Shown here: piece after piece, positions 10,854 through 35,826 of the stretch | Layout of the letters: every line of letters begins with the position of its first letter | How positions within the stretch are numbered: position 1 is the stretch's first letter | Virus record (IMG/VR): IMGVR_UViG_3300045934_000031 | Span: 1-38,928 of that record | Length of the DNA: 38,928 nt | Source: a virus | Direction: 5' to 3' (one strand) | Translations under genes and position numbers: made by a program | Notes under the pieces: generated by a model | What the model was told of the DNA's origin: nothing | The model's input: only the letters and a program-made list of their open reading frames with translations | Databases searched by the model: none

Positions 10854-13130
10854 TTAAGCCTCCGCAGGTGAAGTCGAGAATGTCGCTATATAGATACATC
10901 TACACCTTGGTCCCCCGTCACAAATCTGAGTAAGCGGCGGCATAAACTGATAGAATTCTGGCGATCCAACTATGTACTGAGTACCGGCCCTGTCTAGCTC
11001 CGCACATGGCGCGCAGGTGTTCTGATCGAGTGCGGCTGATAGCTGCATGTATTCTATCTCATCGCCTAATTGTTCAGACTCGTAAGCCCTGCCTTTACCG
11101 AATGCCTCTGGCACGGTAGCCCGTGCTGAAGTCTCGACAGACTTCGTGCTTAAATCTTCGAGTGCCGCCATGATTTCATCAATGTTAGCTGAACCCCTAG
11201 CAATGGCGGCGATTGTTAGGTCACGGGCAGTATTCTCAACCTGTTGCCATACGCGTTGGCCTAGACGAACCGACATAGCCTCAAGTATAGCCTCTGCGTT
11301 TTGTGGTGTTGCGATGCTTGTGTTGGTGTTGATCTTTTTAATCTTTGGTGGCTTTTTAAGTTCAGCGGCCTGCATATTCTCATTTGGCGGTGCCGCTCTA
11401 TTCTGCCGCTTCTTTTCGTCCTGAATGGTTTGACGACCATAATCGTAAAGATCAGATAACACATCCTTAACCGCAAGCGCGGTGCGCTTCTCGTCTTCGT
11501 CGGATACGTTGATTTTCATAGCATCAGATGGTTGTTGGCTTTTTAAAGCAGCCATGATCTGTTGCCGTAGATCCTCAAGTGTCTGATCCTTTACTGTTTG
11601 CGTTATATTAACGATCTGAGAAATGGCACTATCCATAGTGCCTTCTATCGCTTTCCAGGTTACGTGCTTTTCGTTTTGCCTTATGGGCCGCTTCTGAAAA
11701 GTGGTGTAGTGATCAAACTCACTCGGCATTGATTGAAGATATCGGATGGTAACTGATTTTGGTTCGACGGCTTGCTGCCCTGGTTTAGGTTCCTGGTCTT
11801 GCTCGGGCTCGCCTTCGTTGTCATCTGCCGGCGGCGGTTCCGTGTCGTCGATTTCCTTTTCTTGTTTCTTAGGCATCTTGAATTTATCACGTACAAAATC
11901 CTCTGTTTCGTGGTCCGGCGTGATCGCCCCGGCTGAGAATACCTGATTAATGGCTTGAGCGTATTCCAGCAATGCGTCGGTAATAATACCACTCACCTTT
12001 AGCTTTGGATAACGCTTTTTGTCAAGGTTAGGATAGTTAGCTTCGAGTAGGTCTTTGATCCATTTGTTGTTGATGCAATCGGCTATGTAGTTAGCAAAGC
12101 CTTGCAGGTTCTTTAAAAATAGCCCGCTTAGGTTTTCGCTGAGACTCTTAGTCCCGGTATCAGTCATTCCAAGGTTTAAGAAGCCGGCCATAACGCTAAC
12201 GGCAATCCGCTCATCCCGGTATTTGATCATCGGCAATAAATCGATATGCTTGGAATCACCTTGGTCAATGTATTCAAGCTCCCAACCGTTCGGCACGAAC
12301 GCATAGGCTTGCTGATGAGCACGAAGGTTCTTAGCAAGGCTAACGGCATTGGCTTTATCATCCGGGCTATACTTTGGTGGCGCAGTTATCTTAGGTACGC
12401 CTACCGCATGACGCATGGCTTGCATAGCCTGATATTTCTCGAATTTTTCTTTTTGCACCCAAGGTTTGTAGGCCGGGCGCAGGATGCTTTGACCTTTCGG
12501 ACTATCGGCTTCGGGGCGGTTGACAAAGAGTATGCTTTTCCATGCAGGGATTATGTAATCTCCCATAAACTCGCCACTGAATACGCGTTGCCGGTAGCCA
12601 GTGAGGTTTTCATTCTTGTCAAAAAACCACTCCCATATGGTGCTTTGAAGGCGGGGGGCTAGCTTGCAGACATAAAGCTTTCCAGTAGGATCATAGTCAT
12701 AAATCTTTTCCACTAAGCTAAAGCCAAACTTAAGTGATCCTAATGCTATGCGCAGAATGGTTTGAAAGTCTTGCTCGGGGGCTTCAAAGATTGCCCAATT
12801 GACCCATTCAGTTATTTCAAGTTCCTCTGGTGTTGCATCATCCGGGGGGTGAATACACCAATCAGCGGTTATGATCGGCATCTCAAGCATGAGCAACGTG
12901 GCTGCAACTGTTGGATCGTTGCGACTCATCTTGTTAAAGAGATTGACACCCTCGACGCCTTGCAACTTAGGGTTATATTCATCAGCACCGATAAGGTTAT
13001 CGTAACCTAGCTGAACCTCAAACCCGGTTACACCATAGGATTGTTTAGATGGTTGGGTCTTTGGTGCCTTGGGAATTTTTGCGTACTCTTGTGCTACGCG
13101 GGTTCCGTGGACTATAGATTTGCGAGGCAT
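10854..13130 (-). CDS. Portal protein fused to gpF-like head morphogenesis domain (758 aa)
   Basis: Residues about 30-440 match Mu gp29-type portals (DUF935): NKMSRNDPTVAATLLMLEMPI, ALGSLKFGFSLVEKIYDY, then PKGQSILRPAYKPW. A highly acidic Pro-rich linker (about 445-480) follows. The C-terminal 250 residues resemble the minor head protein family of Mu gpF/SPP1 gp7, ending with NTCAPCAELDRAGTQY, PPLTQICDGG and RCRCIY. In Mu these are two genes (gp29 and gpF); here they are one 758-aa protein. It forms the dodecameric DNA gate and head-morphogenesis partner. Start MPRKSIVHG. Confidence 0.88.
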   Translation of the reverse strand: MPRKSIVHGTRVAQEYAKIPKAPKTQPSKQSYGVTGFEVQLGYDNLIGADEYNPKLQGVEGVNLFNKMSRNDPTVAATLLMLEMPIITADWCIHPPDDATPEELEITEWVNWAIFEAPEQDFQTILRIALGSLKFGFSLVEKIYDYDPTGKLYVCKLAPRLQSTIWEWFFDKNENLTGYRQRVFSGEFMGDYIIPAWKSILFVNRPEADSPKGQSILRPAYKPWVQKEKFEKYQAMQAMRHAVGVPKITAPPKYSPDDKANAVSLAKNLRAHQQAYAFVPNGWELEYIDQGDSKHIDLLPMIKYRDERIAVSVMAGFLNLGMTDTGTKSLSENLSGLFLKNLQGFANYIADCINNKWIKDLLEANYPNLDKKRYPKLKVSGIITDALLEYAQAINQVFSAGAITPDHETEDFVRDKFKMPKKQEKEIDDTEPPPADDNEGEPEQDQEPKPGQQAVEPKSVTIRYLQSMPSEFDHYTTFQKRPIRQNEKHVTWKAIEGTMDSAISQIVNITQTVKDQTLEDLRQQIMAALKSQQPSDAMKINVSDEDEKRTALAVKDVLSDLYDYGRQTIQDEKKRQNRAAPPNENMQAAELKKPPKIKKINTNTSIATPQNAEAILEAMSVRLGQRVWQQVENTARDLTIAAIARGSANIDEIMAALEDLSTKSVETSARATVPEAFGKGRAYESEQLGDEIEYMQLSAALDQNTCAPCAELDRAGTQYIVGSPEFYQFMPPLTQICDGGPRCRCIYIATFSTSPAEA

Positions 13131-13192: not shown

Positions 13193-14632
13193 CTACCATT
13201 CACTTGAGCGAATTCTGCCACCTTCATTGGCATCTTTGAAGCTTGAGAATGTGTTTAGCTCCCCGGTTAGCGAACCCCATACGGCATAAGAAAACGCCGC
13301 TGCACCGTCTGGTAGGTGAAAGCCTCGCTTGATCTTAAAGCGTTGATCGCTAGTGTATTCATAGGGGATGGTTGAAAGCTGCGCCCTGATTTCTTCAAAC
13401 TGCCCTAACTTGATTTCACCCGCTTTGATTTTATCGGCAATGGTAAACAATAGCTCGGTCTGCCAATTTTCATAATGCGTCTTGTCGATTACTGTAAGGC
13501 TATTGTCGATTGGTATTACTGTTGTGCTAGCCGGGATTATCTCATGCAACCTATCGGTAACCCCGCCACCTAAGCCACGGTCATCTGGACAAATAATGTC
13601 GACTTGGTACTTATCGCAATAGTCCTTAATGCGGCCAACCGTGTGCATAAGGTTCTTACCGCCATATCTCTCATAGGCTAGCAACTGGCCACCTTGAACA
13701 AGGCAAAAGGCAGTCTCGTCTTCTCCGAACCTTGCAACGTCAATACCGAGACACATAGGCCCATCATAAACTGGTTTAGTACCCATTGCCTCTTCGAGGT
13801 TGGAAATGCTAAAGATCCGATCCGTACCACCTGGAGCAAAATTGCCTAATACCTTTGCGATAAAGATTGGGCTATTCTCACCCCAACGCCGTTTCTTTTC
13901 TTCGATGGTTGCAGGGTCAACTAAGGGTGAATCGTATTCACTTGCATGTACAATTTTCCACATGCTGGATAGGCGAGTGTTGGCGTCATAGAATTCACCG
14001 ACTGGATCTCCCGGCGTTGAACCCATAAACTTTTGCAGGTTCTTAGAGGTTGCAGCACCTTCGATTGCGTCAAAGTGTTCTTTACGGATCGCTTTCGCCT
14101 CTTCAAAGATAAGCATGATATGCCCGGCATGTAGACCTTCGATCAGGTTTGAGTTTTGCGGTGACATTGTGAAGCCTGCCCATTGCCGGCGAAAACCTTT
14201 CATGTAGTAATTTTGTTGTTCGGATCGATGAGCGATTGCTTGAAACTCTGGCGGCATGCGTAGCCACATTTTGTCTATTTCGGACCATAGATAGTTTTTT
14301 AATTGTGTCCAAGACGGACCCATGTAGATCACCCGACAAAATGGGCGGGTGAAAAAGAACCATAGGCTAGCGGCTGCAAGAGTGAATGATTTACCTACGC
14401 CATGGCCTGTTCGCATGCATACATTGTGGCCGTCGGCTAGGTGCCTGAAAGATTCTTTTTGTGGCTTCTCGTAAAGTTCTTTGATTCTTAAAACTTCGTT
14501 AGCGAATGCAAATGGGTCTTTATAAAAATTACTCTTCGCCCACTTCGCTAGCTTGTCCGGCTTCTGATACGTCGCCTTCGTTATTATCTGAGGATTCTTC
14601 GCCTTCTTTGGGCGCTTCGTTTCCAATGACAT
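13193..14632 (-). CDS. terL: Terminase large subunit (479 aa)
   Basis: The N-terminal ATPase has Walker A GHGVGKS (76-82), Walker B IMLIFEE (172-178) and a coupling motif GST (204-206). The C-terminal RNase H-like nuclease has GIDVARFGEDET (Asp 298) and ICPDDRGLGGG (Asp 350/351). It packages DNA into the prohead and cuts it. The ATG at 14632 lies 104 bases inside the small subunit gene, in another frame; its Lys-rich N-terminus overprints the acidic tail of TerS. No later ATG precedes Walker A except one just before it, so the long overlap is probably real. Confidence 0.93.
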   Translation of the reverse strand: MSLETKRPKKAKNPQIITKATYQKPDKLAKWAKSNFYKDPFAFANEVLRIKELYEKPQKESFRHLADGHNVCMRTGHGVGKSFTLAAASLWFFFTRPFCRVIYMGPSWTQLKNYLWSEIDKMWLRMPPEFQAIAHRSEQQNYYMKGFRRQWAGFTMSPQNSNLIEGLHAGHIMLIFEEAKAIRKEHFDAIEGAATSKNLQKFMGSTPGDPVGEFYDANTRLSSMWKIVHASEYDSPLVDPATIEEKKRRWGENSPIFIAKVLGNFAPGGTDRIFSISNLEEAMGTKPVYDGPMCLGIDVARFGEDETAFCLVQGGQLLAYERYGGKNLMHTVGRIKDYCDKYQVDIICPDDRGLGGGVTDRLHEIIPASTTVIPIDNSLTVIDKTHYENWQTELLFTIADKIKAGEIKLGQFEEIRAQLSTIPYEYTSDQRFKIKRGFHLPDGAAAFSYAVWGSLTGELNTFSSFKDANEGGRIRSSEW

Positions 14633-15122
14633 TCGATATGATCCTGTTATTATCAGGGTTAGACGCCACTGCCTGATTTATGATCAACTGTAACATATTC
14701 AGTGAATTGGTGTCAGGCTTTTCTACGTCACGGTTCCAGCGGTCTGGACTGCAATTGCGGAGCCAAAATATGCCGGCTCTATCGGAAGGCTGAAACTTTT
14801 TAACGATCTTATCTTTGACTATGTTGCCGGTGTCTTTGTCGAAAAAGGCGACTTCCTCTTCGTGAGACCAACCACATGCGTTTTGAAACATGGCGATTTC
14901 GACTAGCTCATTTGGTAGTTCGCGGGCTTCATTAATGGCTAGGCGTAAATCAGGGTGCTTGCCTTTCCATAGGCAAATTGTTTTTTCATTGATGCCAAGA
15001 AGTTCAGCTATCTCCGCTTGGGTTTTGCCTTGCTCGATTAAATTAACTATTGCATTACCAACTACTTCGTTAAATCGAGCTGGTCTACCCCGTTTTGCTA
15101 TAGCCCCTGCCATAGCACCCAT
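14529..15122 (-). CDS. terS: Terminase small subunit (197 aa)
   Basis: Protein of 197 aa. A helix-turn-helix near residues 30-55 (KTQAEIAELLGINEKTICLW) is typical of TerS DNA-recognition domains. A middle helical region (about 60-130) would form the oligomer core, and the C-terminal 40 residues are strongly acidic (EAPKEGEESSDNNEGDVSEA). It lies directly upstream of TerL and overlaps it. It recognises the packaging start site and delivers the DNA to TerL. Confidence 0.85.
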   Translation of the reverse strand: MGAMAGAIAKRGRPARFNEVVGNAIVNLIEQGKTQAEIAELLGINEKTICLWKGKHPDLRLAINEARELPNELVEIAMFQNACGWSHEEEVAFFDKDTGNIVKDKIVKKFQPSDRAGIFWLRNCSPDRWNRDVEKPDTNSLNMLQLIINQAVASNPDNNRIISNVIGNEAPKEGEESSDNNEGDVSEAGQASEVGEE

Positions 15123-15135
15123 TGTATCACAATCC

Positions 15136-16383
15136 CTAATTTCTAGGGATATGTAATCCTTGGCTCAACGGAGTTAAGCCGCCTGGATGCAATATCTTAG
15201 TCTCAACGTCAACCCTAAACCCAAGATTGCCCATTAGGGCTCTTATTTCAGGTGTATTGCAATTACGGAAATTTACCGCGCCAAGCATCAAATCACCATT
15301 GGCACCGCCGATATTCCAATATGTATCTTCACCGTAGTAACCACAACTATCAACAGTCAAGGTACGCGCACTATGAACCGGTGGCATTCTGCCAGCAGGA
15401 TTTAAAGCACCAACCCAACTAATATTATTATTCCACTGTCTAGGCACGCCTGGGTGAGCGCAACCGGTATTCTTGATATAGATATGACCATTAGCCGGGC
15501 CTTGAGATGGGACACCATTAATGCTGCCATAAAAATCATTTCCAGAATCATCGAACATAATACATTTCGATTGATCCATAGTAGCCCCGCCGTAATAGCG
15601 CGAATTTTCAATAAACACATTTGCGCTTGCACCTTGTATTACAGTACCGCCGCCGCCACGCCATGAGTTAGGACCGCCCCAATTGTTGAATGCGCTGTTT
15701 TTTATATGTATCAACGCATCTTTAACCCATCGGCATTCTGAAGGTCTTGCCGTAAATTTTAATCCTTCAGCACCAACACCATTTACTTTCAATCCTTCGA
15801 CATAAGCCCCTTTTTTTGCAAACCCATGTCCATAACAAAAATGCTCATGAGATAATGGCATATTCACTTTCACACGCTTGAGAATCCAATCGCATTGATA
15901 ACCAAAAATACCCCAAGTACCATGGGTATCAGTAGTACCTGATCCAGTCCCGTTATCGTTTACTTCCACGTCTTCAAGATAAGCTGTAAACTTTTCTTTA
16001 ATTGGACCACTTGGGTTTGCAAGCCCCATATGCAAAGCTCTACCGCGTGCATAGTAGCTTCTGAAATTCATTGTCATGTTGGTAAATTTAACAATGCCAT
16101 TATGCGGGCCGACAAAGATCATTTCATCAACGTTATGCTGATTTTGAACGCGTGTTACGCCAATTCCTTGCCCTTTGAATTCGACACCGTCGTAACCACT
16201 ATCCAACCAGTTACGAGAATAGTATTTTTTTAAATTATGACCGTTCTGATCCCAATCGATATTAAAACCAGTCTGATCACCTTCCGGCAATTCGATTAGC
16301 TTTAAATTCGGTGGTTCCTCTTGTGAGGCTGCATGTAAATTAACAATTTCATGGTCACCAATTTGAATTACTTCAGGCTCCAT
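15136..16383 (-). CDS. Right-handed beta-helix protein (about 415 aa)
   Basis: Repeating short strands with Asn/Gly turns (for example VKFTNMTMNFRSYYARGRAL, NVFIENSRYYGGAT, HIYIKNTGCAHPGV) indicate a right-handed parallel beta-helix of the pectate-lyase or tailspike type. I chose the ATG at 16383 (MEPEVIQIGDHE) because GGAGG lies four bases upstream; another ATG is at 16404. There is no obvious signal peptide or virion-attachment domain. It lies between a lipoprotein gene and TerS. It could be a depolymerase, a head fibre or another virion glycan-binding protein; no catalytic residues can be assigned. Confidence 0.72.
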   Translation of the reverse strand: MEPEVIQIGDHEIVNLHAASQEEPPNLKLIELPEGDQTGFNIDWDQNGHNLKKYYSRNWLDSGYDGVEFKGQGIGVTRVQNQHNVDEMIFVGPHNGIVKFTNMTMNFRSYYARGRALHMGLANPSGPIKEKFTAYLEDVEVNDNGTGSGTTDTHGTWGIFGYQCDWILKRVKVNMPLSHEHFCYGHGFAKKGAYVEGLKVNGVGAEGLKFTARPSECRWVKDALIHIKNSAFNNWGGPNSWRGGGGTVIQGASANVFIENSRYYGGATMDQSKCIMFDDSGNDFYGSINGVPSQGPANGHIYIKNTGCAHPGVPRQWNNNISWVGALNPAGRMPPVHSARTLTVDSCGYYGEDTYWNIGGANGDLMLGAVNFRNCNTPEIRALMGNLGFRVDVETKILHPGGLTPLSQGLHIPRN

Positions 16384-16394
16384 AAATCCTCCTT

Positions 16395-16805
16395 TTATTT
16401 CCAATTAACGGATTCTAGACCAGACCTATGAACAACCACAAGTTCAGCAGAATTTGATTCGCCGACCCCATCTACTTTATCACAATTAAATACATTCGCT
16501 ATGCTTGTATTGAAAACAAAGCAAGGCTTTCGCACTTCAAGACCAGTCTTTTGTTTAACGCCCCTAATTGCGGCGGCCTCTGGCGTTTCATCTATACCCA
16601 AAACGTCCCCCGGTAGCTCCAATAGATTGTCTGGAATCTCAGGGTGTTCGTTTATTAACACATAAAGATCCGTCGAATCTTTGAGAATACAAGATGATTT
16701 AAACATTCCGACGACTGGCTCGCCACATCCTTTTGGTATGCTCTCAATAACTACTCTATCGCCGCATCCCGCCGCTAGCAGAATGATAATAAGTAATATT
16801 CTCAC
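16395..16805 (-). CDS. Lipoprotein with degenerate Nudix fold (136 aa)
   Basis: Begins with GTG (GTGA overlap with the upstream stop). The signal peptide MRILLIIILLAAGC has lipobox LAAGC (Cys 14), so it should be a lipoprotein. Residues 67-89 keep exact Nudix box spacing (G-x5-E-x7-R-E-U-x-E-E-x-G-U): Glu 73, Arg 81, Val 83, Gly 88 and Leu 89 are present, but the metal-binding Glu positions are Gly 82, Gln 85 and Lys 86. Hydrolase activity is therefore unlikely. Cys 39 and Cys 108 correspond to Cys 35 and 112 of the lipoprotein at 21302-21766, suggesting a disulfide and common origin. Role unknown; a surface-exclusion or host-modifying role is conceivable. Confidence 0.75.
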   Translation of the reverse strand: MRILLIIILLAAGCGDRVVIESIPKGCGEPVVGMFKSSCILKDSTDLYVLINEHPEIPDNLLELPGDVLGIDETPEAAAIRGVKQKTGLEVRKPCFVFNTSIANVFNCDKVDGVGESNSAELVVVHRSGLESVNWK

Positions 16806-17383
16806 TGAGTTATTTTGCCTTCGTAGTGAAAAAGTTCTGGATGCGACTTACAGTAATTATAAAATTGGTCAGGTGTCACGTTATAACCTTCCCACCAATT
16901 AGGCATCGGCACTTTGGCAACTGTCAAGATATGAAATGTTGCCTCGGTACAAAAGTAAGCTTGATCAATTTGATAAGAATTCCCCAACCAGGCTACCCTA
17001 AACATTTCCATAGGTTTTTTATTGGCTTTTGACAAAAACAGCCTTACCGGGTAGGCGATCCAATTTATTATCTTTTCAGTGAATGTCATCAAACCCATGT
17101 AAGCGATCCCGAGATAATCGTATAACTTACCGATCATTGTTTCAGCGTATTCCTTAGCTTCTTTTTCTACCGGATTCACAACAGTAAATATATGGCAAGG
17201 CGTTCCCATCAATCGCCAAGATAAAGGTATCTTCTCGAAAAAGATTTCGCTTGTTTGATAAACCATATCATCGAAGACAACAAAAGCATGCACGATTGGC
17301 GAAGACGTAAACCAAGAGATGATATACCACCCCGGCGGCCCTTTTCTGTTAACCTCGGTTATGTCGACGAATCCGATCTGCAT
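16802..17383 (-). CDS. YiiX-like permuted papain-fold protein (193 aa)
   Basis: Protein of 193 aa. SPIVHAFVVFDDMVYQTS (about residues 28-45) supplies a His and nearby acid; later come GKLYDYLGIAYMG (about 88-100) and QAYFCTEATFHIL (about 140-152), which supplies the Cys. His before Cys in this order is the mark of circularly permuted NlpC/P60 (YiiX/YebB-type) amidases. These act on lipids, amides or peptidoglycan-like substrates. A hydrophobic stretch lies near 100-120. It overlaps the degenerate-Nudix lipoprotein start by four bases, suggesting a joint role. Function beyond the fold is inferred. Confidence 0.62.
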   Translation of the reverse strand: MQIGFVDITEVNRKGPPGWYIISWFTSSPIVHAFVVFDDMVYQTSEIFFEKIPLSWRLMGTPCHIFTVVNPVEKEAKEYAETMIGKLYDYLGIAYMGLMTFTEKIINWIAYPVRLFLSKANKKPMEMFRVAWLGNSYQIDQAYFCTEATFHILTVAKVPMPNWWEGYNVTPDQFYNYCKSHPELFHYEGKITQ

Positions 17384-17394
17384 TTCTCCCCCTC

Positions 17395-17769
17395 TTAAAA
17401 ACTTAATTCCGGATGGCGATATTCATAGCATCTTTCACGTTGTGCTTCTCTACAAATTCGGCAACGGCAGCCATTACGATAGCGTGTAGCGCCGTGACCA
17501 ACCCTTTGCTCAAGCGTCGTCTTTTTCCGGTGACACGAACGGCACAATACTTGACACTTTCGCAATTCGGTGGTGCGCTTAGTATTTGACAATGACCATA
17601 TTCTTGCTGGATTATAGTTTTTCTTTTTCGGATCAACATGATCGACTTCGAGGCTTTTGGTGCTACCGCATGTTTTACAACGCGACCCTCTAGCTTCAAT
17701 CCATTGGGCTCGGCGTTTTTGCATCCACGCGTTTTGATATATTTTCTTTTTCCCACCACTATAGCCCAT
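17395..17769 (-). CDS. HNH endonuclease (124 aa)
   Basis: Protein of 124 aa with CKTCGSTKSLEVDHVDPKKK (residues about 32-51): a zinc CxxC and the D-H of the HNH core. It continues to NTKRTTELRKCQVLCRSCHRKK, with the last His and a second CxxC. A further CRCRICREAQRER segment near the C-terminus may bind DNA or zinc. It sits among small early genes, 10 bases overlapping the upstream coiled-coil gene. It could be a free-standing homing nuclease, or help cut DNA during packaging, though phage packaging HNH genes usually sit next to terL. Confidence 0.85.
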   Translation of the reverse strand: MGYSGGKKKIYQNAWMQKRRAQWIEARGSRCKTCGSTKSLEVDHVDPKKKNYNPARIWSLSNTKRTTELRKCQVLCRSCHRKKTTLEQRVGHGATRYRNGCRCRICREAQRERCYEYRHPELSF

Positions 17770-17965
17770 GATCCAACTTCAATTGGTCAAGTTCCGCCTC
17801 TAGCTCTTTGATCTTTTCATGTTGCAGGCAAATCATTGACTCATGTTCTTCAATCAAAGTCACAATAATGCTTGGACAATTATAAAGAAAACTCCAATCA
17901 TCCACATGGTCACCAAAACGCAGTTTCTTGAGATAATCAATTGCGGCTTTTTGTGTTTCAGTCAT
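17759..17965 (-). CDS. Small coiled-coil protein (68 aa)
   Basis: Protein of 68 aa starting MTETQKAAIDYLKKL, overlapping the stop of the previous small gene by ATGA and the next gene by 11 bases. The C-terminal 25 residues (EKIKELEAELDQLKLDHG) form a likely coiled coil. No function recognised. It belongs to a tight row of small early genes (19426 down to 17395). Confidence 0.6.
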   Translation of the reverse strand: MTETQKAAIDYLKKLRFGDHVDDWSFLYNCPSIIVTLIEEHESMICLQHEKIKELEAELDQLKLDHGL

Positions 17966-18114
17966 TTTGGTTTTTTACTCAGCCGGGTTTTGCGATCAGT
18001 GAGCGATCGATCCATTGCCTCTACCCAACGTCGGATTAGTTCTATTTGCCAATGAGCGGCCATACATAATTTTCTCAATTCCTTAATTTGAGCATTAAGT
18101 TTTTTCTTCGTCAC
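17962..18114 (-). CDS. Small basic helical protein, GTG start (50 aa)
   Basis: A 50-aa frame starts with GTG at 18114, six bases after GGAGG, and reads to TGA at 17962: MTKKKLNAQIKELRKLC, then AAHWQIELIRRWVEAMDR and a basic tail RKTRLSKKPK. It overlaps the upstream gene by 20 bases and the downstream gene by ATGA. Net positive charge and helical make-up suggest nucleic acid or protein binding. No family recognised. Confidence 0.6.
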   Translation of the reverse strand: MTKKKLNAQIKELRKLCMAAHWQIELIRRWVEAMDRSLTDRKTRLSKKPK

Positions 18115-18370
18115 CGATTACCTCCCTCATCTTCATTTGTACTACCCCACACACATTGGGACAAATATTGTGATGATGCGAACCACGTCCGACTAAACAT
18201 TTTGGACAAAACCAAATCTCAACTGGCGCTGGTTGTTCTATATTATTCAATGCCGATTGTTCTAACTCTGTGATCTTCTCAAAAGCTTCAGAGAGTATAA
18301 CATTGGCTCTCTGCTCACAAAGAATATTAAGCAGCCATTTATTACCATCGCTCCAATATGGTTTTTTCAT
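18095..18370 (-). CDS. Small zinc-motif protein (91 aa)
   Basis: Protein of 91 aa starting MKKPYWSDGNKWLLNIL with GAGGA four bases before the ATG. A helical N-terminal half is followed by FCPKCLVGRGSHHHNICPNVCG (about 53-74, quoted in part: CPKC and CPNVC), which could bind one zinc with Cys or His ligands. It is the first gene after the unexplained GC-richer segment. Function unknown. Confidence 0.62.
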   Translation of the reverse strand: MKKPYWSDGNKWLLNILCEQRANVILSEAFEKITELEQSALNNIEQPAPVEIWFCPKCLVGRGSHHHNICPNVCGVVQMKMREVIGDEEKT

Positions 18371-18642
18371 TTTGTCCTCATTTTATTTGTCGCCGTCTCT
18401 CCGACGTGTCACGGTTCGGACTCGTCTCTGCTACCGTTGCATACATTACGTGGAGTCCTTACACGCCTTGCACTAGCCGCCTCATGCAAGAATACGGTTT
18501 TTTAACGACTATCTGCTCCATGGAGCGGTTCCGTCACACCCGGCCGCCAAATTTGTCGCCCCTCCCCGACTACCGAGACAAATGATTGCGAACATACATC
18601 GCCTTGCCCACAGCTTTGATGGCGGCCAGCATGAGATTATTC
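18371..18642. other. About 270-bp GC-richer stretch with no convincing gene
   Basis: No minus-strand frame here is longer than about 22 codons, and the plus-strand frames look like shadows with no good ribosome site. The stretch is clearly richer in G+C than its neighbours. It has repeated motif ATTTGTCGCC...CGAC at 18385-18405 and 18551-18570, inverted repeat ATTTGTC/GACAAAT (18551-18557 and 18577-18583) and 12-base palindrome GCTCCATGGAGC (18515-18526). It may encode a structured RNA, or be the remnant of a foreign gene. Confidence 0.45.
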
Positions 18643-18742
18643 GACTATACTATTGCGCAATTCAAGCCGTCTTTTCTCATCCATGTAATTAGCACCCCGG
18701 GCATTCCATGCTTGCAAGGAGCACAACGGGTAGCCGCCAACT

Positions 18743-18790
18743 TTAATAAGGTTTCGGTTTTGGTTTCGTCTTTGGTTTCTTCTTTGGCAT
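18743..18790 (-). CDS. Possible 15-aa Lys/Pro-rich peptide
   Basis: AGGAGG lies four bases before an ATG at 18790 that opens the 15-codon frame MPKKKPKTKPKPKPY, ending at TAA 18743. This is among the best ribosome sites in the early region, yet the product is tiny and very basic. A neighbouring frame stays open to 18645 and includes TRCAPCKHGMPG, so a frameshift may have broken a longer gene. Either a real micropeptide or a pseudogene remnant. Confidence 0.3.
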   Translation of the reverse strand: MPKKKPKTKPKPKPY

Positions 18791-18804
18791 TTTGCCTCCT
18801 CTCT

Positions 18805-19041
18805 TTAGTATTCATCCGAATCATGGAAACAATAGGCCCTGAGTATATAACGGGCCTTTTCAAAACTGAGAGATAATTTCGAGCGCTCTATCATTTCCAA
18901 ATTTCTCAATGCCACTAATTCGTCCAACAGCTTAAAGTATTTCGACACCTCTTCTAAACATTTAAATGCTGCGGCTACTTCCCTCAATGGTGGTTGCTTA
19001 TTAGGTTGAGGATTAGCTGAGCGCACCACCCTCACGCCCAT
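18805..19041 (-). CDS. Small helical protein (78 aa)
   Basis: Protein of 78 aa starting MGVRVVRSANPQPNKQ, overlapping the upstream gene by 10 bases. A basic Pro-rich N-terminus is followed by long helices (VAAAFKCLEEVSKYFKLLDE and later LSLSFEKARYILRA). Its stop is 15 bases before the possible Lys/Pro-rich peptide. No family recognised. Confidence 0.55.
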   Translation of the reverse strand: MGVRVVRSANPQPNKQPPLREVAAAFKCLEEVSKYFKLLDELVALRNLEMIERSKLSLSFEKARYILRAYCFHDSDEY

Positions 19042-19247
19042 ATGTCAAAGCCTTGTTTTCTGTTTTTCTTGCTGGTGTAATTTTTTCTCCGATCCGCACC
19101 ACGATAACGTGTTTTGGGATTAATTTTTAATTCAAGTTCGCTCAGATGCTTCTGAAATTCATTTCTCTCGATAAGCAATAGATCGATTTTATCGGATAGG
19201 TTATCCAAAGATTTTTGCAGGTTCAGCACCGCCGAGCTGTCGGTCAT
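19032..19247 (-). CDS. Small coiled-coil protein with basic tail (71 aa)
   Basis: Protein of 71 aa. Residues 8-40 (LNLQKSLDNLSDKIDLLLIE and onward) form a coiled coil; the C-terminus is strongly basic (RYRGADRRKNYTSKKNRKQG). The ATG at 19247 shares a base with the upstream stop (TAATG). Together with the 59-aa coiled-coil protein before it, it may form a heteromer. Function unknown. Confidence 0.6.
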   Translation of the reverse strand: MTDSSAVLNLQKSLDNLSDKIDLLLIERNEFQKHLSELELKINPKTRYRGADRRKNYTSKKNRKQGFDIWA

Positions 19248-19426
19248 TATCGCAAAGCCCTCCGTGCCGCATCCTCAATGTCCGATATGTGGCCTCTCAG
19301 AGTATCGACTTCGGTTTCAAGGTCTTTGATTCTGACATGCAGTTCTTTTTTCTCTTCGAGCATGTCGTCGATTTGGGCACCTAGGTCATTGATAGATTGT
19401 TGTAATTCTGCGTAACTATCACTCAT
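19247..19426 (-). CDS. Small coiled-coil protein (59 aa)
   Basis: A 59-aa frame starts at ATG 19426 (overlapping the upstream stop by ATGA) and ends with TAA at 19247. Nearly the whole protein (MSDSYAELQQSINDLGAQID, then EEKKELHVRIKDLETEVDTL) is a heptad-repeat coiled coil. It directly follows the secreted RCEC paralogue pair and precedes another coiled-coil gene. Function unknown. Confidence 0.65.
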   Translation of the reverse strand: MSDSYAELQQSINDLGAQIDDMLEEKKELHVRIKDLETEVDTLRGHISDIEDAARRALR

Positions 19427-19998
19427 GATTTAGGCCCCTTATCAGCGGGGTAATGCTTATTGCCATTACCGTCGTACCATGAGTTATCTTTTGGTTGTCC
19501 AAGAGTATTGGGAGTCGATGGTGCCGAATATGTCGATGGGCTTGATCTTTCAATTACAGTAGCGGGTCGGTTCCTTAATTCTTGTACCGTGGTTTTCAGG
19601 GCTTGTATTTCTTGGTAAAGACCCTGATAAGAAGCACTAGAGCCACCCGAAGACATACTTCTTGCCGATGCCACGTAGCCTTGTGTCCCAATAACTGAAC
19701 GGCAAGTCACGAGTTGGGTTAAACTGGTAATGCCTGCCCCGCTCTCAGTCTTTGTCATATAAAACTTCCCCGTGCTTTCCATGCAGTCGTCATGCATGTT
19801 TTGCAGTGATTTCACATCTGTTGAGACCGTGACAACCCCATCTGCTGAATCTGTTTCGCACTCGCATCGTATCCTGGGATCAGATATGGCATTATAAAAT
19901 GCATTCAGTTCCCCCTCTTCTATAAGTTCCATGGGGTAAATGGTCTTCTGTGCAAAAGCACTAGTCGAGAAAAGCATTAAGATTATTATATATTTCAT
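19423..19998 (-). CDS. Secreted RCEC protein, paralogue 2 (191 aa)
   Basis: Signal peptide MKYIIILMLFSTSAFAQ with an AFAQ cleavage site and no lipobox, so probably periplasmic. After KTIYP comes a domain with IRCECETDSADGVVTVS, a later Cys, FYMTK and LVTCRSVIGT. This is followed by a coiled coil (LYQEIQALKTTVQELRNR) and a Ser/Pro-rich tail. It aligns along its whole length with the protein encoded immediately upstream. The conserved Cys residues could form disulfides in the periplasm. No known family recognised; function unknown. Confidence 0.78.
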   Translation of the reverse strand: MKYIIILMLFSTSAFAQKTIYPMELIEEGELNAFYNAISDPRIRCECETDSADGVVTVSTDVKSLQNMHDDCMESTGKFYMTKTESGAGITSLTQLVTCRSVIGTQGYVASARSMSSGGSSASYQGLYQEIQALKTTVQELRNRPATVIERSSPSTYSAPSTPNTLGQPKDNSWYDGNGNKHYPADKGPKS

Positions 19999-20015
19999 GA
20001 TTGACTCCTTTATGT

Positions 20016-20606
20016 TTATTTATGAGGTGCCGTATCGCCGCGATCTCTCACACGTCCTTTACTATCCACCCATGTTTGACTAGGATTACTTGTAGGTGTC
20101 CTGTTAATAGGAGTGCTTGGGGTATAGTTAGGGAATGATTGTGGAGTATAATTTGTCTGAGTATTTCTATTGTTCAGCATGCCCCGCAATTCATCTATCT
20201 GCTGAGCTAGATCATTAATTTGACCACTGTAATCTACTGAGACTCCAGTTCTAGATGATCCTACTGATATGGGCTTATTCAGATAGGATGATGTACCAAT
20301 ATTACTCTTACATGTAAGTAACTCCACAAGCCCTTCGACTTGACCATTGCTCTTTTTTGCCATATAGAAATTGCGCTCATGTTCCTTACACGCTTCACGC
20401 ATCTCATCCATAGGGGCACTTTCTAAGCTTACTATAACCACCCCATCTTCTGAATTAGTAGCACATTCACAACGGATAAGTGGTTTGTCTATTGCATCCA
20501 AGAGAGGGTCTAGTTCGTCAGCACCTATTATTTCCGCTGGATAAATAGTCTTACTTTGTGCAAATGCAGTGTTTGTAAGAAGTATTAAGGCTATGATGAT
20601 TTTCAT
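20016..20606 (-). CDS. Secreted RCEC protein, paralogue 1 (196 aa)
   Basis: Signal peptide MKIIIALILLTNTAFAQ, then KTIYPAEIIG, IRCECATNSEDGVVIVS, a middle Cys (REACKEHERNFYMAK) and LLTCKSNIGTSSY. A coiled coil (YSGQINDLAQQIDELRGML) and a Pro/Thr/Asn-rich tail follow. Conserved with its neighbour at 19423-19998: KTIYP, RCEC, DGVV, FYM, LxTCxSxIGT. The start overlaps the upstream stop by ATGA. It appears to be a tandem duplicate of a periplasmic phage protein of unknown function. Confidence 0.78.
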   Translation of the reverse strand: MKIIIALILLTNTAFAQSKTIYPAEIIGADELDPLLDAIDKPLIRCECATNSEDGVVIVSLESAPMDEMREACKEHERNFYMAKKSNGQVEGLVELLTCKSNIGTSSYLNKPISVGSSRTGVSVDYSGQINDLAQQIDELRGMLNNRNTQTNYTPQSFPNYTPSTPINRTPTSNPSQTWVDSKGRVRDRGDTAPHK

Positions 20607-20806
20607 TTTTGTACTCCTTTGTTGGTTTTGTTTATTGCTCTATTAAGTTTCTTAATTGGTTTAACGTTAATCACAACACTAGCAACTAACCCACACTGGC
20701 CACATTCAAGATCATACCAACCACTAGCTGGCACTGGTAGTTCTAAGGCCATGGCTCGATCGCATCCGCATGTCCATAGTAGTTCTTCTAAAGTTAAGTT
20801 CTTCAC
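20603..20806 (-). CDS. Small zinc-ribbon-like protein (67 aa)
   Basis: Protein of 67 aa opening with GTG at 20806. CGCD (13-16) and CGQCG (about 35-39) could hold a zinc ion; the C-terminus is basic (KPIKKLNRAINKTNKG). It lies two bases after the DUF1660-like gene and overlaps the RCEC paralogue 1 gene by ATGA. Role unknown, possibly regulatory. Confidence 0.6.
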   Translation of the reverse strand: MKNLTLEELLWTCGCDRAMALELPVPASGWYDLECGQCGLVASVVINVKPIKKLNRAINKTNKGVQK

Positions 20807-20807
20807 C

Positions 20808-20909
20808 TTATTTCCATAATATTTTCCCGCAGCGTTCGCATTCTTCTCTGAGAGCTGCGTATAAAATCATCATTTTATGTCCGAACAAAAAACAGATTAG
20901 TTTCTTCAC
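20808..20909 (-). CDS. DUF1660-like small protein (33 aa)
   Basis: A 33-aa frame opens with GTG at 20909, overlapping the upstream TGA stop (GTGA), and ends with TAA at 20808. It reads MKKLICFLFGHKMMIL, then REECERCGKILWK. LCxLFGHK followed by CxRCG is the pattern of the widespread small phage DUF1660 proteins, which probably bind zinc through Cys and His. Function unknown. Confidence 0.6.
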   Translation of the reverse strand: MKKLICFLFGHKMMILYAALREECERCGKILWK

Positions 20910-21292
20910 GGATGCACTTCCTTCTCAATCGCTTTGTTACTGCAATTGACTGTTTCAGTGGCCGCAACTATCGCCGACTTACTTTTATCTATCCCCAATG
21001 TGCATTCAAGGGATTCTCGTAAACAGGCTCTATTTACTGTAGGCCCATCCGGTGTATTCACCGAACACAAGCCGTTCAAAGCGCCCATGATAATAATTAT
21101 GTTTATATAGTTATTATCAAAATTGGCTTGCACCGGAGCCGCCTTCGGGGGTTCTTTTGGGGTTTCAGGATTCTCCGGTGCCTCTGTTTCTTCTTTGACC
21201 TCTGCCGGCTTATCCACTTGAGCGGCTCCTTGTTCGCAAGACGAGTAACCAGTACCTAAAATAGCTAGAGCTAGGATCAAAATATATTTCAT
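20906..21292 (-). CDS. Exported Cys-containing protein, possible lipoprotein (128 aa)
   Basis: Strong ribosome site (AGGAGG) before ATG 21292. The hydrophobic N-terminus MKYILILALAILGTGYSSC is a signal sequence; YSSC is a poor lipobox, so Cys 19 may or may not be lipidated. A Pro/Glu-rich linker (about 27-52) leads to a C-terminal domain with four Cys (LCSVN, RACLRE, LECTLG, VNCSN) that could form two disulfides. It lies between the lipoprotein at 21302 and the RCEC pair. No family recognised. Confidence 0.7.
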   Translation of the reverse strand: MKYILILALAILGTGYSSCEQGAAQVDKPAEVKEETEAPENPETPKEPPKAAPVQANFDNNYINIIIIMGALNGLCSVNTPDGPTVNRACLRESLECTLGIDKSKSAIVAATETVNCSNKAIEKEVHP

Positions 21293-21301
21293 GCTGGCCT
21301 C

Positions 21302-21766
21302 CTAATATCCCAAGGTTTTAAGTGTATTGAAAATATCTTTATTCACATACTCAGTTTTCAACACATCATCGTGAGGGATATTCTTAATCTTAATCCCATT
21401 GCCTTGCGTACTCGGTGTATCGAATGTGGTGCAGAGAAAAAAGAATCGAACCCCGCCTGGATGCAGCGTGCTGAATGCAACAGCGGGTGAGGGGAAAAGT
21501 TTTATCCCCATTTGTCTTTCAGTAACTTCTTGTAGTTTTAGCGATAGCTCATCATGTTCAATTTCTAGGTTATTAGTTGCATAGGTCGGCAAACTATAAA
21601 CCTCTCTTGAGGTATCCGGTTGCGTTGCCCCAAGGTAGCTCAACTTCCCATCAGTCACAATGCAATATGCCTCAAGTTTACCTGTCGGGTTTGGATCGCC
21701 ATTGCTATTCCCTCCGCCTCCGCAATTACAGCCGATAAGCAATAGTGTTAGTAGAATGTATTTCAT
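21302..21766 (-). CDS. Lipoprotein with Nudix-like fold, degenerate (154 aa)
   Basis: ATG 21766 follows AAAGGAAAC at good spacing and gives signal peptide MKYILLTLLLIGC (lipobox LIGC, Cys 13), then a Gly/Asn-rich spacer. The body looks Nudix-like: AYCIVTDGKLSYLG (33-46), SLPTYA (58-63), the helix LQEVTERQMGI (78-88) in the box position, then VAFSTLHPGGVRFFFLC. The box is degenerate, with one extra residue and no clear Gly-x5-Glu. Cys 35 and 112 match Cys 39 and 108 of the lipoprotein at 16395-16805. Probably a non-enzymatic outer-membrane or periplasmic lipoprotein. Confidence 0.68.
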   Translation of the reverse strand: MKYILLTLLLIGCNCGGGGNSNGDPNPTGKLEAYCIVTDGKLSYLGATQPDTSREVYSLPTYATNNLEIEHDELSLKLQEVTERQMGIKLFPSPAVAFSTLHPGGVRFFFLCTTFDTPSTQGNGIKIKNIPHDDVLKTEYVNKDIFNTLKTLGY

Positions 21767-21792
21767 GGTTGTGTTTCCTTTCTTTGTTGTTT

Positions 21793-22251
21793 TCATTGTG
21801 AAACTTCCCTACAAATAGCCTCGATTTCGATTCTCGTTTGGTAAGGAATCTTTGCTTGTTTGGCTAATTCTATTGTTTTTTCTAGGATCGCATTGATAGC
21901 AGCTTTAAAACCCTCATCGAATGCATTAGTGAATTGAGCATGTGCTTCTGGCTTGGTAATTTCTTTTGCGGGCCGGCCGGTAATATACCAAAGGGTGTTT
22001 AGCGCGCCACTCTCGTCGTCTCTTTTTTCACCACATTTTTCGATTAAATCCATTGCTGCCAATTCGCTAAACCTTGTAGCAATTGCGCCTGTTGCTGAAT
22101 TCGGAGCGATACGTCGCCATGTTTGCAATTGAGTGCATGGCCCGTAATCACAAATATCCTCAAACACTTGCAGCCTGCGTTCGCTCAATAGCCCGCTGGC
22201 CTTCGCTTGTTCATAAGCTATTTTAGAAGTTTCAGTCATCGTATCTGCCAT
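21793..22251 (-). CDS. Winged-helix-like protein (152 aa)
   Basis: Protein of 152 aa. Residues about 20-90 (SERRLQVFEDICDYGPCTQL, SATGAIATRFSELAAMDLIE, then NTLWYITGRPAKE) fit a winged helix like those in phage replication or MarR/ROK-type domains. A C-terminal helical part (FKAAINAILEKTIELAKQAK) may dimerise. It overlaps the upstream gene by 16 bases. Could be a regulator of early transcription or a replication accessory protein. Confidence 0.62.
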   Translation of the reverse strand: MADTMTETSKIAYEQAKASGLLSERRLQVFEDICDYGPCTQLQTWRRIAPNSATGAIATRFSELAAMDLIEKCGEKRDDESGALNTLWYITGRPAKEITKPEAHAQFTNAFDEGFKAAINAILEKTIELAKQAKIPYQTRIEIEAICREVSQ

Positions 22252-22805
22252 TGATTATTAGGATTCGCTTGCGCCCATTCTTTCAAACGCGCACACATTA
22301 TGCCGATTTCACCTTGTATAGTTTCGCTCTTAGTCCCTAACTTCTCGATTGCATCCGTAAGCAAATTAATCGTTGCTTGACCGGGCTGTAAGCCTAGTTT
22401 GCTGAAATTAAAATATTCACACCAATGGGCTGGAATAAAAACGTGTTGGTCAGCAAGCTTGACCGTGATTAATTTAATCTCATCATTCGGCAAACGATTG
22501 TCATTGACCCATGATTTCGTTTCATAGTTTTGCAAATAGATCGCCCCGTTTCGCATAAAGGTGTCGCATTCTTTAAAGCCGAGCCACCGTTTAAGTACGC
22601 TATGGATAGCATCGCCCCTGGTCTGCCCGCGTCCTACAAAAGTTGTTTCGTCTTTAATCATAGCGATTGTTTCACCCTTTCCTTTTCTGTTAATCAATAC
22701 ATGTATTACTAAGCTGAGTTGATAACTGTTAACTCCGTCGCTCATTTCACCGCCATGAAAATCATAAACATAAGGAACCCGACTATCAGCAATAGGATTT
22801 TGCAA
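22236..22805 (-). CDS. Unknown early protein, nested TTG start (189 aa)
   Basis: The frame opens with TTG at 22805, six bases after a perfect AAAGGAGGT located inside the upstream gene. An alternative ATG at 22745 (MSDGVNSYQL) overlaps the upstream stop by ATGA. Contents: a beta-rich middle (LVIHVLINRKGKGETIAMIK), NGAIYLQNYETKSWVND, and a helical end (IEKLGTKSETIQGEIGIMCA). No family recognised. The gene lies among replication and regulatory genes. Confidence 0.6.
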   Translation of the reverse strand: MQNPIADSRVPYVYDFHGGEMSDGVNSYQLSLVIHVLINRKGKGETIAMIKDETTFVGRGQTRGDAIHSVLKRWLGFKECDTFMRNGAIYLQNYETKSWVNDNRLPNDEIKLITVKLADQHVFIPAHWCEYFNFSKLGLQPGQATINLLTDAIEKLGTKSETIQGEIGIMCARLKEWAQANPNNQWQIR

Positions 22806-22975
22806 ATCAATACCTCCTTTTGCAATTGGTTAACCCGTCGCACAAAGACATTATTGATCTCGTTTTGCTTCTGAGCAAACTTAGTCGTTGCATCGCCTAA
22901 TGCCTGCAATGTATCAGCAAGGCTAGTTGTGTGACCGTCGGTAAGCACTGGTTTAAATTCAATGATCTTTGCCAT
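22742..22975 (-). CDS. Small coiled-coil membrane protein (77 aa)
   Basis: Protein of 77 aa starting MAKIIEFKPVLTDGHTT. Residues 22-55 are helical and coiled-coil-like; residues 56-76 (ICKILLLIVGFLMFMIFMAV) form one transmembrane segment. It is probably tail-anchored in the inner membrane. It overlaps the upstream gene by 17 bases and contains the ribosome site for the next gene. Function unknown. Confidence 0.65.
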   Translation of the reverse strand: MAKIIEFKPVLTDGHTTSLADTLQALGDATTKFAQKQNEINNVFVRRVNQLQKEVLICKILLLIVGFLMFMIFMAVK

Positions 22976-23264
22976 TTTTCTTCACCGGCATGGGAGGTTT
23001 ATCATAACTAAGGCTTGTGCTTATTTCAAAGCGAGCGATAGTTATACCGCGCGCCCTTAGAAAATTAGTCATCGATTGCATGGCCGTGCTGATTTTGCTT
23101 TCAATGAGTGTCTGCAAATCTTTGAGCGGCCTAGTCTGATCGCCATGGGGATTGTCCGTATATAACAAACCTTCCAAGGTAATCTCTGGCATAGCCACAT
23201 ACCGCAAAGCCACTAATGGTTTTTGTTTAAGCGGCTTTTCTTTTAAGTTTGCTTTTTGTTTCAT
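22959..23264 (-). CDS. Unknown early protein (101 aa)
   Basis: Protein of 101 aa with a Lys-rich N-terminus (MKQKANLKEKPLKQKPL), then LEGLLYTDNPHGDQTRPL and a helical stretch (LQTLIESKISTAMQSMTNFL). It overlaps the ribbon-helix-helix gene by 38 bases in another frame, so translation is probably coupled. Family not recognised. Confidence 0.55.
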   Translation of the reverse strand: MKQKANLKEKPLKQKPLVALRYVAMPEITLEGLLYTDNPHGDQTRPLKDLQTLIESKISTAMQSMTNFLRARGITIARFEISTSLSYDKPPMPVKKNGKDH

Positions 23265-23427
23265 TTTCCATTTCCTTTATCGGTATAGGTGTATTGTATT
23301 TTTCCATGTATGTTAGGCTTGCCCATCGCATAAACTGAGACATGGTGATATCGTGCTTCACACAATAATCAATTACCATTTTTTTAATCTCGGGATCGAC
23401 TGCAAAATGTATCGAATTCTTAGCCAT
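23227..23427 (-). CDS. Ribbon-helix-helix regulator (66 aa)
   Basis: Protein of 66 aa: a short strand NSIHFAVD, then helix EIKKMVIDYCVKHDI and TMSQFMRWASLTYMEKY. This strand-helix-helix order with the T-M-S-Q-F-M-R turn is the Arc/CopG-type DNA-binding fold. It directly follows the Sak4-like gene (8-base gap). A likely repressor of phage or host promoters; the inverted repeats noted in this annotation are possible targets. Confidence 0.72.
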   Translation of the reverse strand: MAKNSIHFAVDPEIKKMVIDYCVKHDITMSQFMRWASLTYMEKYNTPIPIKEMENETKSKLKRKAA

Positions 23428-23435
23428 AATGCCCC

Positions 23436-24497
23436 TTATTGTTGAGCCGCCGTCTCATCGGATTTAATCAGCGGCACTTGTTTTGATTTAACCTTGTCGT
23501 CGAAAGTATCCTTGATGATTTGAATCCCCCTTTTCAATTCAACAGCTCCAAGGTTTTCAAGGGCGGTCTTTGAACTAGTCCCGAAAACGTTTTCCAGTGT
23601 TGCCACTCGAAGTTTCTTTGCGTCAGCACTAGTACCGTCCATATTGAATTTAATCAGGGTTGCTTGTAACTCTTCTAAAGCAATATCCCTTGCTTTCATC
23701 TTCTCAAAATATGAATTGTCGTTTGCTTCAAAAAGCCCGGTTGAATCCCTTGATTCGTCAAACCCGTGATGCGCACCAATGCTCAAACACTTTACTACCG
23801 GCAAAAATGTATCGAAAGTAGGCTCATCGAAATACTTGCCATCAATCAAATCCCAACGGTCTTTGCGGACCCAACAGCGATGAATATCCTTGAACGTTTT
23901 TGGATCTTCGAGCCGCTCCATTTCCAACAATAAATCAGACTCATAACCAAATTCACCTTCGGCTTTAAACTTAGTCCCGGTCGCCATAAGTTCTTTTTTG
24001 CCGGTCTCTTCGTTTAGTTCCCGTTCCCATTGATAACCCGCGCGCCCGAGCGCTAATACGTGCATCTTCGAGTTGATGAATAGATCGGTGAACTGCGCCC
24101 ATTCGGTCTTGCAAGGTTGCAGTTTGCGAAGAAATTCCTTGGTGCCCGTCTTGACTCCGTAAGCTTTTAATAATTCATTCCATACATGGGTGACTGAATC
24201 GATGATAAACGCATTGTAGCCGCTATCTTCGGCTTCACGCATGGCCGCACACAAATCCTTAAAAGCCCTTGACTTTACAATTGAAAATTGAATGCCCTGT
24301 TGCTTGAAAAAATCGACTAAAAAGTCGCTTGACTTCTCGGTGTCCAGCATGGCGATTTTTGGTTTTTCGATCTTGGCGTATTTGACGACGCCAGCGGCAA
24401 TCCTTGACGCGGTGAAGGTTTTGCCGGAACCCTGAAAGCCCATAATGCCGATCTTTAAAAAGCCCGTTTCATTCTCCGCTGGTCTAAGTAAACCCAT
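23436..24497 (-). CDS. Sak4-like RecA-fold ATPase / recombinase (about 353 aa)
   Basis: I chose ATG 24497 (MGLLRPAENETG) because GGAG lies upstream; a TTG at 24557 would add 20 residues. Walker A is GFQGSGKTF (about 20-28), followed by IAMLDTEKSSDF and a Walker B-like AFIIDSVTHVWNEL (about 100-113). This is the RecA/RadA-like fold of phage Sak4 single-strand annealing recombinases. It lies with the replication genes and would act in recombination-dependent replication or repair. The C-terminal 70 residues are Lys/Asp-rich and may bind other proteins. Confidence 0.82.
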   Translation of the reverse strand: MGLLRPAENETGFLKIGIMGFQGSGKTFTASRIAAGVVKYAKIEKPKIAMLDTEKSSDFLVDFFKQQGIQFSIVKSRAFKDLCAAMREAEDSGYNAFIIDSVTHVWNELLKAYGVKTGTKEFLRKLQPCKTEWAQFTDLFINSKMHVLALGRAGYQWERELNEETGKKELMATGTKFKAEGEFGYESDLLLEMERLEDPKTFKDIHRCWVRKDRWDLIDGKYFDEPTFDTFLPVVKCLSIGAHHGFDESRDSTGLFEANDNSYFEKMKARDIALEELQATLIKFNMDGTSADAKKLRVATLENVFGTSSKTALENLGAVELKRGIQIIKDTFDDKVKSKQVPLIKSDETAAQQ

Positions 24498-26696: not shown

Positions 26697-27134
26697 TTAT
26701 TCGCACCAAACGTTTAAGTAAAAATAGACCGGTGTATAATTCACGGCTTCTTTGATATCGCTCGGAGTCGCAATGCGACCAAAGTGATCGTAAATATAAA
26801 CTCTCACTGCATCTAATGCTAATGATGCCCCGACACTGACACCCAAACGACCAAGCATATCATTTGGCGTAGCGGTCACGGAAAAGATTTGCTCACAAGC
26901 TTTGGTGTATTTAATTTCGATGTACTCAGCGGTTTGACTGATGGATTTAAGACCGAGCGCTTTGTGATCTTGATCTTCGAGAATTTTCCAATCCCCTGTT
27001 TGAGTCGCACTAATTATCCCCATGCGATCCTCGCGTTGAGGTGGCGTCGGGGTTTTGTCGACTACATTGCTGGCCGCGCTTTTCCCGCAAGCACAAAGCA
27101 AGAAGGCTAAAAATAATATTGGTTGATGCTTCAT
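26697..27134 (-). CDS. Phage lipoprotein (145 aa)
   Basis: Signal peptide MKHQPILFLAFLLCACG with a lipobox-like LCAC; a TP-rich spacer follows (DKTPTPPQRED). The mature domain has ISQTAEYIEIKYTKACEQIF and a C-terminal VYFYLNVWCE, so two Cys that may pair. The Gly/Ala-rich middle (LGRLGVSVGASLALDAV) could be a membrane-facing helix. No family recognised. With the 55-aa lipoprotein upstream it starts the early region with envelope-directed products. Confidence 0.7.
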   Translation of the reverse strand: MKHQPILFLAFLLCACGKSAASNVVDKTPTPPQREDRMGIISATQTGDWKILEDQDHKALGLKSISQTAEYIEIKYTKACEQIFSVTATPNDMLGRLGVSVGASLALDAVRVYIYDHFGRIATPSDIKEAVNYTPVYFYLNVWCE

Positions 27135-27149
27135 GTTGATTTTCCTTTC

Positions 27150-27305
27150 TTAGTTTAAACCCATATATTCTTTTATCATGATCGGTTTATAGCCCAAGTT
27201 TTTGATCGCCTTATAAGCCAAGTAAGGCGTTCTAGCTTTTTGATAAATCATAAACACTGCACCGGGGGCTGTTTTATCCAAATATCTCACTTCATATTTT
27301 TTCAT
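27150..27305 (-). CDS. Small basic early protein (51 aa)
   Basis: A 51-aa frame starts at ATG 27305 (MKKYEVRYLDKTAPGAVFMI) with GAGGT upstream and ends at TAA 27150. It overlaps the lipoprotein gene before it by 14 bases. It looks like a small alpha/beta protein with ARTPYLAYKAIKNLGYKPIM. No family recognised; small early proteins of this kind often bind host factors. Confidence 0.6.
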   Translation of the reverse strand: MKKYEVRYLDKTAPGAVFMIYQKARTPYLAYKAIKNLGYKPIMIKEYMGLN

Positions 27306-27459
27306 TGGCTACCTCTTTAGTATTGCAAATCCATTCGGTGTGATCGGCGTTACCGATCTTCAGGCTGATTAATTCGCATCTGTCGATATCGAGCGTTTCA
27401 GTTTCGTCGCCACAACCAATCAAAAATATTGCGGTCAATAATACGATTAGGTATCTCAT
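27292..27459 (-). CDS. Small lipoprotein (55 aa)
   Basis: ATG 27459 opens MRYLIVLLTAIFLIGCGDE: a signal peptide with lipobox LIGC, Cys 16. The mature part is only about 40 residues and has two more Cys (DRCELIS and EWICNTK) that could form a disulfide. The ribosome site ACGGAGGTG lies inside the end of the upstream gene. Such tiny lipoproteins in phage early regions are sometimes superinfection-exclusion factors; this is only an analogy. Confidence 0.68.
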   Translation of the reverse strand: MRYLIVLLTAIFLIGCGDETETLDIDRCELISLKIGNADHTEWICNTKEVANEKI

Positions 27460-33275: not shown

Positions 33276-33276
33276 T

Positions 33277-33793: not shown

Positions 33794-33801
33794 TCCCCCA
33801 T

Positions 33802-35271: not shown

Positions 35272-35274
35272 ATA

Positions 35275-35820: not shown

Positions 35821-35826
35821 AACACC

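Follow-up and report, generated by a model that had tools for sequence, protein, structure and literature searches.

A phage with Mu-like head and packaging genes encodes a predicted lipoprotein carrying a degenerate Nudix domain

The locus and its genomic setting

The phage studied here is IMG/VR record IMGVR_UViG_3300045934_000031, and the window is the whole record of 38,928 bases. A 127-base direct repeat is common to both ends, as is typical of complete circular assemblies, and the record is therefore taken as such. The head and packaging genes are Mu-like, with a portal fused to a MuF domain, a Mu-type protease, and a gpT capsid. For the region 14000-24000 no close relative was found among 50,697 phage records. 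A sister phage, IMGVR_UViG_3300037422_000067 (circular, 36,796 bases, 127-base end overlap), was reached through an alignment of terminases. A sequence-only reading of the window had placed two lipoprotein genes in this region, here denoted P1 and P2; both open reading frames are present, on the minus strand. The features considered are:

15136..16404, minus strand: downstream gene of 422 aa, possibly a beta-helix surface protein (by eye); 78% identity in the sister phage
16395..16805, minus strand: P1, predicted lipoprotein of 136 aa with a degenerate Nudix domain (open reading frame; Pfam PF00293; 75% identical homologue)
16482..16484, minus strand: P1 Cys108, conserved in the sister phage homologue
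16521..16523, minus strand: P1 Cys95, conserved in the sister phage homologue
16527..16688, minus strand: P1 region matching Pfam NUDIX, residues 40-93
16539..16607, minus strand: degenerate Nudix box of P1, residues 67-89 (DVLGIDETPEAAAIRGVKQKTGL), from the sequence and an alignment with E. coli Nudix proteins
16548..16565, minus strand: RGVKQK of P1, residues 81-86, replacing RE-U-x-EE; identical in the homologue
16689..16691, minus strand: P1 Cys39, conserved in the sister phage homologue
16725..16727, minus strand: P1 Cys27, conserved in the sister phage homologue
16764..16766, minus strand: P1 Cys14, predicted lipidation site, followed by Gly and not Asp (lipobox; homologue)
16767..16805, minus strand: P1 signal peptide, residues 1-13 (recognised by R2, a hydrophobic stretch and the lipobox AAGC)
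16802..17383, minus strand: upstream partner gene, papain-like by eye (H32 ... FCTE C145); phrog_1128, 5.9e-11
17395..21766, minus strand: variable island with an HNH endonuclease, a secreted paralogue pair and P2; little in common with the sister phage
21302..21766, minus strand: P2, predicted lipoprotein of 154 aa (open reading frame, lipobox LIGC)
21728..21730, minus strand: P2 Cys13, predicted lipidation site (lipobox LIGC13)
33084-34634, minus strand: probable lysis cassette (weak M15 peptidase match; holin- and spanin-like proteins by eye)

P1 belongs to a conserved block consisting of the papain-like protein, P1, the beta-helix-like protein, and the terminases, with 67-83% identity to the sister phage throughout. 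An ORF-by-ORF comparison of the two phages indicates that the neighbouring island turns over while P1 stays with the terminases. The stop of the papain-like gene overlaps the start of P1 in both phages; this start is a GTG at 16805 in the window and an ATG in the sister phage. The papain-like gene (66% identity to the sister phage copy) has neither a Pfam nor a PDB match, and the only Pfam match of the 422-aa downstream gene is sub-threshold.

Several further genes of the window, all on the minus strand, deserve mention. The 758-aa fusion of a Mu-type portal and a MuF-like domain (10854-13130) is also found in the sister phage and in L003, whose MCP is 59% identical. In the tail region, a phrog_8610 protein (831-1643) matches Pfam XRCC1_N just above the cut-off and probably has a galactose-binding-like fold. 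A 440-aa protein (31278-32600) contains about three near-identical repeats (GPLTDTQLRATPVPISGTVTANQGGAWTVSVSGSVAVT), and three adjacent related proteins of 181-195 aa (34693-36414), each with RYLAED near the N-terminus, are likely tail or surface paralogues. The members of the probable lysis cassette are a protein with a C-terminal hydrophobic segment, an M15-like protein with an H..D..HIH pattern, an i-spanin-like protein of 78 aa, a secreted protein of 114 aa, and a membrane protein of 63 aa.

Sequence features and conservation of P1

The signal peptide of P1 (MRILLIIILLAAG) is predicted, by pattern, to be cleaved before C14 of the lipobox AAGC. In line with the signal peptides read earlier from the sequence, P1 (lipobox AAGC) and P2 (lipobox LIGC) each begin with a basic residue and a hydrophobic stretch ahead of the lipobox, such that by pattern both have the signal peptide with a lipobox Cys of bacterial lipoproteins. 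For P1, the predicted anchoring in a membrane is backed by the sequence as well as by the conserved homologue.

Pfam PF00293 matches P1 with 22.5 bits (E = 1.2e-4, curated cut-off 21.1); the mature protein scores 22.9 bits, and the homologue alone 19.3 bits, which is under the cut-off. In a six-frame search of the genome with the same profile, P1 is the sole match. A Nudix HMM of our own, made from 13 proteins of this family in E. coli, assigns 14.5 bits to P1 versus 11.1 bits for the top shuffle, and a profile-profile comparison bears out the Nudix assignment (hhalign 87.5%, E = 3.6e-6). The PDB sequence matches of P1 are mostly Nudix proteins, none of them individually significant, and a tblastn search of plasmids with P1 gave three matches at E<=1, each annotated as a Nudix protein. 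A match on a P. distasonis plasmid was set aside as an ordinary Nudix gene.

Within the box, E73, R81, G88 and L89 are retained with exact spacing from E73 to L89, while D67, G82, Q85 and K86 stand for G, E, E and E of the pattern GX5EX7REUXEEXGU. The earlier reading of the box, including the loss of the metal-binding acids at G82, Q85 and K86, is hence confirmed, with D67 as an additional departure. When aligned with the E. coli Nudix proteins, both P1 and its homologue end one residue past the conserved Trp; since the sequence stops there, P1 would be without the usual last Nudix helix. By profile and alignment, P1 is clearly derived from the Nudix family and has lost all three metal-binding Glu. 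The structure prediction of P1 (single-sequence AlphaFold2) is of low confidence (pLDDT 31.9).

The ends of the sister phage record cut the P1 gene, which was read across the end overlap. The encoded protein, likewise of 136 aa, retains RGVKQK, all five Cys, a lipobox, and the C-terminal end; G88 is changed to Glu, one more loss. Its signal peptide consists of different letters of the same kind, with the lipobox ALSC. The changes at the three codon positions of this pair, a comparison of two sequences, number 31/15/77, with a dN of 0.17 and a saturated dS. The dominance of third-position changes indicates that selection maintains the dead form and, judged from the two sequences, this form predates the split of the phages. 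When patterns of P1, P2, TerL, MCP and the papain-like protein were scanned against viral and genome contigs, the sister phage was the only other carrier of P1. A tblastn search of P1 and P2 in phages gave no match, and no named phage record matched P1. Upstream of the terminase genes, L003 has small ORFs as well as glycosyltransferase-like (by eye) ORFs, and no Nudix match was obtained there.

With four Cys in addition to the lipobox one, P1 could form disulfides in more than one pairing. The segment spanning Cys95-Cys108 (CFVFNTSIANVFNC) resembles a hairpin, and the low-confidence model places strands at 95-99 and 102-106; a putative Cys95-Cys108 bond is at least as plausible as a Cys39-Cys108 bond. 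The Cys pair that P1 had been said to share with P2 stands in part: in a forced Nudix alignment, Cys39 of P1 and Cys35 of P2 occupy one column, whereas Cys108 and Cys112 lie two columns apart.

P2 and the variable island

The best start of P2 is the ATG at 21766, preceded by AAAGGAAA; an in-frame ATG is located ten codons upstream at 21796. The gene stands at the edge of the variable island and is absent from the sister phage. Searches of Pfam, NCBIfam and PDB gave no match to P2. Its score of -2.2 bits on our Nudix HMM is equalled by 983 of 5000 shuffles (35% of the 2,801 scored), and after addition of P1 to the profile the P2 score is matched by 1059 of 5000; hhalign against Nudix gives 0.1%. 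Direct comparison of P1 and P2 results in P = 0.05 for the local alignment (0.02 for the P1 homologue versus P2), P = 0.19 for the global alignment (0.06 for the homologue), and 3.5% in hhalign. BLASTP gives 0.019, but with an alignment that is out of register with the Nudix box. The structure prediction of P2 is again of low confidence (pLDDT 34.1). The proposal that P2 is itself a Nudix protein is thus not borne out by its profile scores, which are like those of shuffled sequences, and none of the statistics computed supports a fold or a disulfide common to the two proteins, which also differ in evolutionary pattern. P2 may have a very diverged Nudix fold; it would appear to be a separate accessory lipoprotein.

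The island also includes tandem paralogues (19423-19998 and 20016-20606, minus strand) with 37% identity, classical signal peptides (AFA followed by Q), and conserved Cys; their counterpart in the sister phage is a single shorter gene of weak similarity. The variable island of the sister phage (L011 1706-1915) harbors a short-period repeat that reads as alternating residues in several frames (AIAIAI, GYGYGS). Two further predicted lipoproteins are encoded at 26697-27134 and 27292-27459 (minus strand), the one of 55 aa with a homologue in the sister phage, so that the phage encodes at least four.

Proposed role of P1 and alternative readings

With the Nudix superfamily (PF00293; MutT and relatives) P1 shares the Pfam match, the box spacing, E73/R81/G88/L89, and the order of elements up to the conserved Trp. 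It differs in its predicted export and lipidation, the loss of the three metal-binding Glu, Asp as the first box residue in place of Gly, the lack of the C-terminal helix past Trp, and four extra conserved Cys. Inactive Nudix domains are known as binding or sensor domains, as in TRPM2 (PMC4974056) and NrtR (PMC6800001). TRPM2 NUDT9H, the NrtR sensor domain, SDOS and CCAR2 resemble P1 as non-hydrolysing Nudix domains, in their case used for binding; these proteins are cytosolic or nuclear and cellular, whereas P1 is phage-encoded and predicted to be extracytoplasmic. In the parts cited here of a viral NAD/ADP-ribose survey (PMC9503650), Nudix is found in 0.25% of small phages and a lipidated form is not mentioned; the phage Nudix proteins described in these parts (T4 NudE, NadM-type clades) share with P1 a phage Nudix domain near packaging genes, but have enzymatic activity and no described lipidation. 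In open-access full-text literature, no exported, periplasmic or lipoprotein Nudix was found, an absence that is not proof of novelty.

A second comparison concerns phage lipoproteins. Superinfection exclusion is the function of several whose role is known. In the periplasm, the lipoprotein T5 Llp jams FhuA; an intramolecular disulfide is common to T5 Llp and the Cor family (PMC9586334). The mEpimmI lipoproteins, whose genes lie inside the structural gene cluster, keep out phages of the same group (PMC11893012). Like T5 Llp and Cor, P1 is a small phage-encoded lipoprotein with conserved Cys, encoded near structural genes; in contrast to these, it is larger and has a Nudix-derived domain, and the searches run gave no sequence relation.

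We tentatively propose, as a possibility that is open to some doubt, that P1 is a lipidated Nudix pseudoenzyme with a binding surface in the periplasm, whose most likely role would be superinfection exclusion in the manner of T5 Llp. The phage would probably infect a Gram-negative host. P1 would leave the cytoplasm through Sec and receive its lipid at Cys14; its anchoring site would probably be the periplasmic face of the outer membrane, a placement suggested by Gly, not Asp, after Cys14. The Nudix-derived domain, devoid of the metal site and the last helix, would serve for binding instead of hydrolysis; that the metal site was lost while the protein stayed conserved points to such a role. During the late phase, P1 may bind an envelope component, for example a receptor, and, working like T5 Llp, exclude superinfection or protect progeny. 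The lipoprotein signal, the Nudix homology, the loss of the three acids, selection, and linkage to the late block are established at the level of the sequence; receptor blocking, which had been suggested before, is compatible with what is known of T5 Llp and Cor among phage lipoproteins (PMC9586334). P1 would fit the pattern of exclusion lipoproteins in anchor, Cys, and gene position. A main doubt is the overlapping upstream papain-like gene, which an exclusion role leaves unexplained.

The binding partner might instead be a periplasmic pyrophosphate ligand, either soluble or linked to a lipid, such as an NDP-sugar or an undecaprenyl-pyrophosphate intermediate, with P1 as a sensor or sequestering protein and no receptor blocking. 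We consider this somewhat unlikely: Nudix folds bind X-linked diphosphates, the catalytically dead TRPM2 NUDT9H still binds ADP-ribose (PMC4974056), and P1 retains E73 and R81, but none of the three metal ligands is left, and it is usually through the metals that Nudix proteins hold their substrates. Less likely again is that P1 and the papain-like protein form an envelope-modifying or lysis-related pair. Their adjacency and stop-start overlap are kept in both phages, at a position where Mu-like phages carry lysis genes. A separate lysis cassette at 33084-34634 is, however, kept in the sister phage as well, and the papain-like assignment consists of motifs by eye and phrog_1128, whose name says no peptidase. 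Since the probable lysis cassette lies elsewhere, membership of P1 in such a cassette was set aside as a main idea.

That P1 and P2 are diverged paralogues of one Nudix-derived lipoprotein is improbable: the predicted segments occur in the same order, the low-confidence models share a strand-helix-hairpin order, and C39/C35 as well as the helix region come roughly into register when the alignment is forced, yet the signal between the two proteins does not go beyond P of about 0.02-0.19, P2 scores resemble those of shuffled sequence, and the gene is missing from the sister phage. Decay of a functionless former Nudix enzyme, as the missing catalytic residues and last helix might indicate, is highly improbable given the strong constraint, with third-position changes dominating, the frame open and every Cys retained in both phages.

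Returning to P1 as a binding protein, it is quite possible, if short of probable, that the phage has remade a Nudix enzyme as an exported, lipid-anchored, possibly disulfide-stabilised binding protein in the envelope. If true, an enzyme fold of nucleotide metabolism would have found another use beyond the cytoplasm, in a phage protein of the surface or the periplasm. P1 would then be a compact, expressible candidate for exclusion or ligand-binding assays, and proteins like it would be at risk of mis-annotation as hydrolases.
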